A DNA stretch of 64,000 bases from Domibacillus indicus (GTDB taxonomy: Bacteria; Bacillota; Bacilli; Bacillales; Domibacillaceae). A program made the position numbers and the translations under genes. The DNA lies in NCBI RefSeq assembly GCF_000970685.1, contig NZ_LAJB01000014.1, positions 1 to 64,000 of the forward strand, written 5' to 3'. Below the pieces are notes generated by a model, which saw only the letters and a program-made list of their open reading frames with translations, made no database searches and had not been told where the DNA came from. The number at the start of each line of letters is the position of its first letter. Within the stretch, counting starts at the first letter, position 1. Below are positions 12,283-16,068 of this stretch, one piece after another.

Positions 12283-12311
12283 TTGCTTATTTTTATAAAA
12301 GCTGTTAAGAT
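12283..12311 (+). promoter_or_regulatory. Probable sigma-A promoter of the cold-shock gene
   Basis: TTGCTT (12283-12288) and TAAGAT (12306-12311) are separated by 17 bases. This gives a transcribed leader of about 110 bases before the cold-shock start codon, typical of csp genes whose leader folds in a temperature-dependent way. Confidence 0.55.
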
Positions 12312-12428
12312 GAAATAGAATTATTTTTGTTCGAAAGGTACAAGTGCTGTAAAAGCTTATTGTCTTGATATTGCTTTGAGCAGGAATAGTATTAATTTGT
12401 GCATAAGCACAACGGGAGGCAACATAAC

Positions 12429-12629
12429 ATGGAACAAGGTAAAGTAAAATGGTTTAACGCAGAAAAAGGTTTCGGCTTCATCGAGCGCGAAGCTGGAGAC
12501 GACGTATTCGTTCATTTCTCAGCAATTCAAGGCGAAGGCTACAAAACTCTTGACGAAGGTCAAGAAGTAACATTCGAAGTTGAACAAGGACAACGTGGTC
12601 CTCAAGCAACTAACGTACAAAAAGGTTAA
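12429..12629 (+). CDS. cspC: Cold-shock protein (CspC-like)
   Basis: A 66-residue single cold-shock domain, an RNA chaperone binding single-stranded RNA and DNA. RNP1 (KGFGFIER, residues 13-20) and RNP2 (VFVHFSAI, residues 26-33) are intact. The N terminus [20 protein letters not shown] is closest, from memory, to B. subtilis CspC. The ATG at 12429 follows GGGAGG at a normal distance; a longer in-frame reading is rejected. A leader of about 110 bases precedes it and a strong terminator follows. Confidence 0.95.
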
Positions 12630-12644
12630 TCTTATATAACATAT

Positions 12645-12678
12645 AAAAAAGGCAGCCCGGTTTCGGGCTGCCTTTTTT
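12645..12678. terminator. Bidirectional rho-independent terminator
   Basis: The arms GGCAGCCCG and CGGGCTGCC are flanked by A6 on the left and T6 on the right. It therefore serves both the cold-shock gene and the convergent CAP-domain gene. Confidence 0.92.
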
Positions 12679-15415: not shown

Positions 15416-15444
15416 TTGACAATTTGGAAGGTCTGTATTATAAT
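15416..15444 (+). promoter_or_regulatory. Consensus sigma-A promoter of the riboswitch unit
   Basis: TTGACA (15416-15421) and TATAAT (15439-15444) are both perfect and separated by 17 bases. Transcription would start near 15451, just before the riboswitch. Confidence 0.9.
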
Positions 15445-15464
15445 GGTTATACAAAATTAAACGT

Positions 15465-15567
15465 ATGCTCCTAAAGGGGAGTAGCTTTAGCGGTACAGTC
15501 GTCATTTCAGAGATTTAACTCTCGGCTGTTCCGGCAGCATATTGCTGTTAGCGAGACCTTTACCTCC
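15465..15567 (+). ncRNA. yybP-ykoY manganese riboswitch
   Basis: The family's conserved pieces occur in order. AAAGGGGAGTAGC (15473-15485) is the 5' strand of P1 and the L1 loop. GTACAGTCGTCA (15493-15504) pairs with GGCTGTTCC further on. TTAGCGAGACCTTTACC (15548-15564) is the 3' part. P1 forms between TAAAGG and CCTTTA. The 3' strand is also the first arm of the downstream terminator (15550-15583), giving mutually exclusive folds. In B. subtilis Mn2+ binding to this class favours read-through. The usual downstream gene (TerC, MntP or P-type ATPase family) is absent. Confidence 0.88.
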
Positions 15568-15592
15568 TGGTAAAGGTCTCGCTGTTTTTTTA
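15550..15592 (+). terminator. Riboswitch expression-platform terminator
   Basis: AGCGAGACCTTTACC (15550-15564) pairs perfectly with GGTAAAGGTCTCGCT (15569-15583) over a 4-base loop, followed by a run of T. The first arm overlaps the P1 strand of the aptamer. Confidence 0.92.
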
Positions 15593-15626
15593 AAAACCTT
15601 TGCCAGAGCTGGCAAAGGTTTTTTTT
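15593..15626 (+). terminator. Second terminator directly after the riboswitch
   Basis: AAAACCTTTGCC and GGCAAAGGTTTT form a perfect 12-bp stem followed by T. It is not part of the aptamer and would stop transcripts even when the riboswitch is on, which isolates the riboswitch from the Spo0M-like gene. Confidence 0.88.
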
Positions 15627-15672
15627 CGTTTTATTGGTCCATACTAAACACAAACAAAAAGGGTGGAGGAAA

Positions 15673-16068
15673 ATGATTATGATGTTGAGAAAATATATGT
15701 CACTGCTGGGGATTGGGTCAGCTCAAATTGATCTGATACTGCCAAAAGAAACATACAGACCGGGTGAGCAAATTCAAGCATATTTTTTAATACAGGGCGG
15801 AACAGTCGATCAGCGGATTACCCGGATTGAATGTGATCTTATGCTTGAAAACCATATGGACGAAACAAGCAAAACAATAGAAACGCGCACAATCTTGTCA
15901 ACACGGACAATCGCTGCCGAAGAGTTAAATAAGGTGCCCTTTACCTTCCGGCTGCCGGAAGTGCTGCCGGTTCCGGGGCGTGATGAATCGTATCGCTTCA
16001 GGACAAAGCTGACATTTGACCAGGGCACAGAAAGTGTTGATCAGGACTGGATTAAAATTGTTGTATAA
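15673..16068 (+). CDS. Spo0M-like arrestin-fold protein (half length)
   Basis: A 131-residue protein similar to the N-terminal domain of Spo0M (SpoOM family). Recognisable parts are LGIGSAQIDLILPKETYRPGEQIQAYFLIQGG and the C-terminal TKLTFDQGTESVDQDWIKIVV. B. subtilis Spo0M is about 258 residues with two arrestin-like domains; this one has only the first. The ATG at 15673 follows GGTGGAGG. It lies 47 bases after a strong terminator that follows the manganese riboswitch, so its own promoter must lie close by or expression depends on read-through. Whether it is a natural short form or a truncated gene is not resolved. Confidence 0.75.
   Translation: MIMMLRKYMSLLGIGSAQIDLILPKETYRPGEQIQAYFLIQGGTVDQRITRIECDLMLENHMDETSKTIETRTILSTRTIAAEELNKVPFTFRLPEVLPVPGRDESYRFRTKLTFDQGTESVDQDWIKIVV

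Follow-up and report, generated by a model that had tools for sequence, protein, structure and literature searches.

Riboswitches of the yybP-ykoY family are built around a four-way junction that includes helix P2, and the L. lactis representative responds to Mn2+ with ON polarity (PMC11087558). For the ykoY switch of H. halodurans, in vitro termination gave about 50% read-through at 200 uM Mn2+ (PMC10898510), and meeY (ykoY) of B. subtilis is regulated by a Mn riboswitch (PMC10550928). A review regards yybP variants for other metals as likely and points out that Mn2+ sensing is a poor fit for some of the genes preceded by yybP motifs (PMC7266159). The leader examined in the present study lies in Domibacillus indicus, on the + strand of a 64-kb stretch of DNA, analysed at its full length and hereafter called the window.

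The locus begins with a TTGACA-17-TATAAT promoter (15416..15444) that agrees with the sigma-A consensus at 12/12 positions. This exact match is the single one in the 64 kb, against 0.02 expected by chance, and a similar promoter stands upstream of most Domibacillus leaders in the comparison. A preliminary description had named a perfect sigma-A promoter, an aptamer core, two hairpins and a Spo0M-like open reading frame (ORF), and had remarked that the usual target, a transporter, was absent. All of these pieces are present in the window and the promoter is as described; among the downstream genes of the window, no TerC or other exporter was found in place after the ORF, which is followed by an acylphosphatase gene on the minus strand and then by a Na/Ala symporter. 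The leader (15450-15592) folds with a z-score of -8.7, and none of 200 shuffled sequences was as stable. Elsewhere in the window, positions 12299-12678 over a csp-like gene match the Rfam cspA thermoregulator (82.4 bits, cut-off 78); the match is largely coding sequence, which makes it a candidate RNA thermometer only.

A search with the covariance model of the yybP-ykoY family (RF00080) returned a match at 15464-15549 (20.9 bits, E 0.0002), and RF00080 was the only Rfam family at E <= 0.05, a relaxed threshold, on 15455-15566. The proposed family assignment thus obtained its match, at a score below the 45-bit gathering score, and an Rfam scan at the gathering threshold listed no Mn2+ switch in the window. 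Only four of 20 loci with such leaders pass this cut-off, two of the four being compact (L112, L150). A large share of the family thus escapes it, and the Mn2+ regulon of Bacilli would be under-counted because many of its switches stay hidden. A second covariance model, R1, was built from the aptamers of 19 related leaders including that of the window, which consequently matches by construction (113 bits at 15462-15565). The 19 aligned leaders share long invariant stretches and covarying pairs, with 16 of the 52 predicted pairs changed on both sides. The window leader has the conserved L1 (GGGGAGUAGC) and L3 (GUCGUCA) cores together with the closing strands of the P1 switch helix, placed by the leader alignment at 15472-15477 with 15557-15562.

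L1 and L3 lie 12-16 nt apart in all parsed leaders but three (L001, L002 and L100, 21-30 nt), which implies that P2 is missing from the compact form. The window leader likewise has no P2 between L1 and P3 and, not having the four-way junction, is classed as a variant of RF00080. R1 was built from compact leaders only and still picks up the three P2-bearing leaders at 35-44 bits, lower scores that nonetheless indicate one family rather than a new one. On the strength of the RF00080 match, R1 and the alignment, the element at 15462..15565 is a compact, P2-less member of the yybP-ykoY family, with Mn2+ as its presumed ligand by analogy with characterised members. A chance or decayed aptamer was rejected on the stability of the fold, the conservation of the leader and the invariant stretches of the alignment. 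Both the low RF00080 score and the unusual targets would also be expected if compact leaders had changed ligand, for example to another divalent metal, which would explain the FbpB and Spo0M-like genes behind them and which the review cited above anticipates (PMC7266159). We consider such a change improbable, given that compact aptamers also stand first before TerC in dozens of leaders, that L112 and L150 exceed the RF00080 cut-off, and that the L1 and L3 core letters are identical to those of P2-bearing switches.

In front of the aptamer core lies a possible early OFF hairpin, P0 (15468..15481), in which CUCC (15468-15471) pairs with GGAG (15478-15481) to the exclusion of L1 and of the P1 5' strand. 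This 4-bp helix can form in 79 of 92 Spo0M-type leaders versus 9 of 42 leaders with TerC first. Formation of P0 would mask L1 together with the P1 strand and may set the OFF state.

Among 61 genomes drawn from the genus, family and order, 50 match the leader, the window's own included; across the class, R1 has matches in 253 of 398 genomes, from 103 of 146 genera. As the loci were gathered by searches with the compact leader or the Spo0M-like protein, they are uninformative on the frequency of P2-bearing switches. Within Domibacillus, 11 of 13 genomes score above 100 bits with R1, in each case at this locus, and a close Spo0M-like ORF is likewise missing from the two without a match (G003, G009). 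Four plasmid records of 266 kb to 1.4 Mb carry the leader; a phage origin was rejected, there being no phage record among the matches. Several further arrangements were observed. One genome (L017) has two compact Mn2+ switches 511 nt apart (1502 and 2013), with FbpB after the second. Three Domibacillus have a second compact switch (L241, L242, L243) before a hydrophobic peptide of ~50 aa, which resembles the first ORF of L071, and T1 is there almost without a U tract. Decaying switches occur in Bacillus sp. ZZV12-4809 (L232), where the aptamer is gone and the hairpins are kept, and in Cytobacillus firmus AMY 5.1.1 (L233), where L1 is destroyed and a foreign hairpin replaces T1. Five compact switches (L074, L076, L084, L090, L097) precede a secreted-looking protein of ~145 aa containing KSGKK, for which a Pfam scan of one representative gave no family over the cut-off; other targets (L089, L118, L122, L130, L136, L107, L108) include DUF6376 lipoprotein-like and DedA/VTT membrane proteins.

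The gene directly behind the D. indicus leader encodes a Spo0M-like single-domain protein of 131 aa (15673..16068, + strand). It matches Pfam Spo0M (PF07070) at 80 bits (cut-off 23) over family positions 1-134 of 213, the N-terminal part only, and aligns with residues 4-127 of the 252 residues of Spo0M structure 5CL2. Its structure model (mean pLDDT 79.8) finds its best fold matches in Spo0M and in arrestin N-lobes. The gene had been called half-length. Truncation was rejected, the ORF having the length of its counterparts in congeners and relatives (~130 aa), and it is full length for a family of single-domain proteins. In seven congeners the directly downstream Spo0M-like ORF is 91-92% identical, and a GGTGGAGG-type ribosome-binding site is kept among the congeners.

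This gene and the switch travel together. In a pattern search, 19 of 20 homologues at >= 47% identity, the window among the 20, had the aptamer upstream, versus one of 10 at 30-43%; the twentieth (L031) has an aptamer by leader match that the pattern missed. Eighteen of the 19 pattern matches lie within 500 nt, and the remaining one (L036) lies at 1449 nt, behind DUF1232 and TerC genes. The GTDB species genomes yielded 118 candidate stretches coding for a relative of the ORF, of which 80 were kept as named loci. An R1 match lies upstream on the same strand in 76 of these 80, a count that includes L233 at 38 bits although its L1 is destroyed and its T1 lost. The exceptions are L172 (contig edge), L232, and L210 and L221, in which the ORF is present and the R1 search found no switch upstream. 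The riboswitch had initially been called orphaned; as judged from this sequence comparison, the Spo0M-like ORF is instead a regular, conserved partner of the compact switch. An apparent relic thereby becomes a conserved unit, very probably a working one, and Mn2+ sensing would be linked to a sporulation-type (Spo0M-like) protein and to FbpB, which Pfam names as Fur-regulated. An earlier reading suggested that the switch might have lost its gene and might make only a short Mn2+-dependent RNA, one that would end at the second hairpin, T2; the strength of T2, the missing transporter and the probable loss of TerC from this spot all speak in its favour. We give it little credence, since it leaves unexplained why the gene stays attached to the switch across the named loci, why it is kept directly downstream at such identity in the congeners, and why its ribosome-binding site is conserved.

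Between T2 and the ORF (15624-15672), six congeners (L157-L162) share TTTGTCCATACTAA or a near form, where the window has TTGGTCCATACTAA. This shared stretch could be a second, sporulation-type promoter, on a resemblance to sigma-factor sites that we assume.

The genes behind related switches place the absence of TerC in context. Targets were assigned by a reference-protein search downstream of 184 leaders, and the target counts rest on this search since earlier first-ORF calling had misassigned some loci; 183 of the 184 regions entered the grouped counts. In relatives the switch heads an operon of FbpB, Spo0M-like, DUF1232 and TerC genes in varying subsets, and the 93 regions with a Spo0M-like gene also contain FbpB in 57 cases, DUF1232 in 43 and TerC in 24. 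The annotation of a Sporosarcina psychrophila plasmid has the switch followed by FbpB, a 'sporulation protein', DUF1232, a Ser/Thr kinase and TerC, and Cytobacillus spongiae has the switch, FbpB and a 'sporulation protein'. TerC directly follows the Spo0M-like gene in D. epiphyticus, D. antri and the metagenome-assembled Domibacillus RH52, and was not found there in the six other named congeners compared. In the tree, D. epiphyticus and RH52 fall outside the window's clade with support of 97/88 and 100/98 (a rough bootstrap, D. antri being absent), so a single loss of TerC toward that clade is the simplest reading. The window's clade has thus probably lost TerC from behind the Spo0M-like gene. 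The suggestion of a lost transporter gene accordingly survives for TerC, which three Domibacillus retain, and fails for a switch left without any gene, the Spo0M-like partner having been retained. On the whole Spo0M tree the TerC label shows no clustering (it needs 8 changes, and 283 of 500 shuffles needed no more), and in view of this scatter we claim no single loss outside Domibacillus. A shared operon with TerC offers a concrete alternative for genes behind yybP motifs that seem ill-suited to Mn2+ sensing.

The leader carries two hairpins, each with a U tract. T1 (15549..15584, 16 pairs) overlaps P1 with its 5' strand, and T2 (15592..15623, 14 pairs) was noted at the outset to echo it, which is confirmed in that its 5' arm is able to base-pair with the 3' arm of T1. 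Of 92 Spo0M-type leaders, 88 have a T2 of this kind; the same echo is found in 12 of 14 leaders with FbpB and without Spo0M, 22 of 29 with other targets, 20 of 42 with TerC first and 2 of 6 unclassified; all groups summed, the echo is kept in 144 of the 149 leaders that possess T2. T2 is absent from 19 of the 42 TerC-first leaders, so a relay between the two hairpins is not general to the family.

The complementarity of the two arms exceeds that of chance neighbours. A first parse of 119 loci (four duplicates having been removed beforehand) yielded 82 with T1 and T2, 27 with T1 only and 10 unparsed, and 78 of the 82 (75 distinct) entered the permutation test. The T1 3' x T2 5' duplex averages -13.6 kcal/mol over the 75 distinct loci, compared with -4.5 kcal/mol for pairings with 138 unrelated terminator arms, and reaches -9 kcal/mol or below in 92% of cognate versus 5.9% of unrelated combinations; a random neighbouring terminator was rejected as the origin of T2 on these figures. 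Swapping partners between loci weakened the duplex (-13.59 cognate versus -12.76, sd 0.17), with 0 of 5000 permutations as good, a p value that, like those below, is optimistic because the loci are related. The mirror pairing, T1 5' x T2 3', gave p 0.60 on the same loci, in a test with less power because the T1 5' strand varies little. When each genus contributed one locus (40 genera, 200 draws), the cognate advantage was -1.04 kcal/mol (largest p 0.007) and that of the mirror pairing -0.25 (median p 0.107). The named set (62 distinct pairs from 76 leaders) gave p 0.02 and p 0.996, respectively. Pair counts showed a small effect (94.0% paired versus 93.0% shuffled, 8 of 2000), with six double changes in the relay helix versus 2.3 when shuffled (24 of 2000). 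This test used 65 of 179 leaders, 71 being dropped as duplicates, 32 for want of a T2-like arm and 11 of T1, and 17 loci had been excluded beforehand as duplicates or repeats of named genomes. In leaders such as L115, L121 and L187 both strands of the relay helix have changed, and the T1 5' strand, also needed by P1, stays within its usual range. The helix is weak in Domibacillus robiginosus (L157, -4.7).

The T1 3' and T2 5' arms are thus complementary and covary between loci, the effect in pair counts being small. If T2 were a neutral copy, both pairings should be equally tuned; that only T1 3' x T2 5' is tuned argues against this. T2 had also been called unconditional, a label at odds with its conservation and with this covariation, which points to conditional use. 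Tandem terminators are common, and T1 and T2 could be a plain pair of them, Mn2+ relieving T1 only, with T2 a leaky back-stop that damps expression and the likeness to T1 a leftover of duplication. The greater stability of T2 at equilibrium fits such an arrangement. We nevertheless regard it as unlikely, though not negligibly so: it does not account for a cognate preference restricted to one of the two pairings or for the persistence of the echo in leaders with T2, and some T1 hairpins have hardly any U tract (e.g. L120, L071) and could not be the sole regulated terminator.

We propose instead that the leader is a working transcriptional Mn2+ ON switch of compact yybP-ykoY type that controls the Spo0M-like gene through a two-stage T1/T2 platform, a reading to which we assign a probability of roughly 0.62. 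At low Mn2+, P1 would stay open, T1 and then T2 would form, and transcription would stop. At high Mn2+ the aptamer would dock and P1 would take over the T1 5' strand; the T1 3' strand (15567-15577), now unpaired, would capture the T2 5' strand (15596-15606) ahead of synthesis of the T2 3' strand, both terminators would fail, and the gene would be read. This putative relay antiterminator (15567..15606) comprises 11 bp at about -15 kcal/mol once P1 is closed. Nascent-RNA folding with P1 enforced made the 11-bp relay hairpin (-15.0 kcal/mol) the best fold from 15608 to about 15616, and from 15620 on T2 was more stable (about -20.7). As T2 beats the relay hairpin at equilibrium once fully transcribed, antitermination must be kinetic, and capture of the T2 strand would have to be co-transcriptional; kinetic control is discussed for riboswitches generally (PMC11087558). 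The comparison supports the proposal through the conservation of the leader, its link with the Spo0M-like gene, the T1/T2 echo, the covariation of the T1 3' and T2 5' arms, and TerC in sister lineages; Mn2+ as ligand and the ON polarity are carried over from family members. In D. indicus the unit would be a trimmed form of an operon that once included TerC.

The P1 3' strand is repeated in the T2 5' arm, which allows an inverse logic in which T1 formation leaves the P1 5' strand free to pair with the T2 5' arm, so that Mn2+ would turn the gene OFF. Such a helix would span a long range with just 6 bp and compete with the 14-bp T2, P0 would compete for the same P1 strand, and the known relatives are ON switches; we consider this highly improbable. 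Returning to the relay, we hold it an even bet that Bacillaceae Mn2+ switches more widely use two-stage strand exchange, with T1 as an anti-antiterminator (sometimes no terminator) and T2 as the real terminator, and that they govern an undescribed Mn2+ regulon joining FbpB, single-domain Spo0M, DUF1232, a protein-kinase-like gene and TerC in one operon. Relay antitermination of this type would, if true, be a platform type new to the family. In the open-licence PMC literature we found no paper on a manganese riboswitch with FbpB, on yybP-ykoY with DUF1232, or on a riboswitch with tandem terminators and manganese; the gene links may be published elsewhere, and the P2-less form may likewise already be published beyond the open-licence PMC articles that the search covered.

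Compared with the RF00080 switches of L. lactis (yybP) and H. halodurans (ykoY), the window leader shares the L1 and L3 cores, the order of promoter, leader and terminator, and a P1 switch helix that has its 3' strand in common with the terminator. It differs in the absence of P2 (an L1-L3 spacing of 12-16 nt, compared with 21-30 nt), in the P0 placed in front, in the echoing second hairpin, in the Spo0M-like target and in a score below the Rfam cut-off. The same genome has two further RF00080 matches (51.5 and 38.1 bits), both before TerC-type genes (by Pfam scan for the first). The genome's two other Mn2+ switches, C30 and C23, before TerC genes, have L1 and L3 cores as in the window and R1 scores of 35.3 and 44.2 bits, but both possess P2, C30 has a single terminator and C23 no echoing T2. 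The encoded protein resembles B. subtilis Spo0M (PDB 5CL2, PF07070) in its arrestin N-lobe-like domain and differs from it in being a single domain of ~130 aa, without the C-terminal half, in a switch-tied subfamily of its own.
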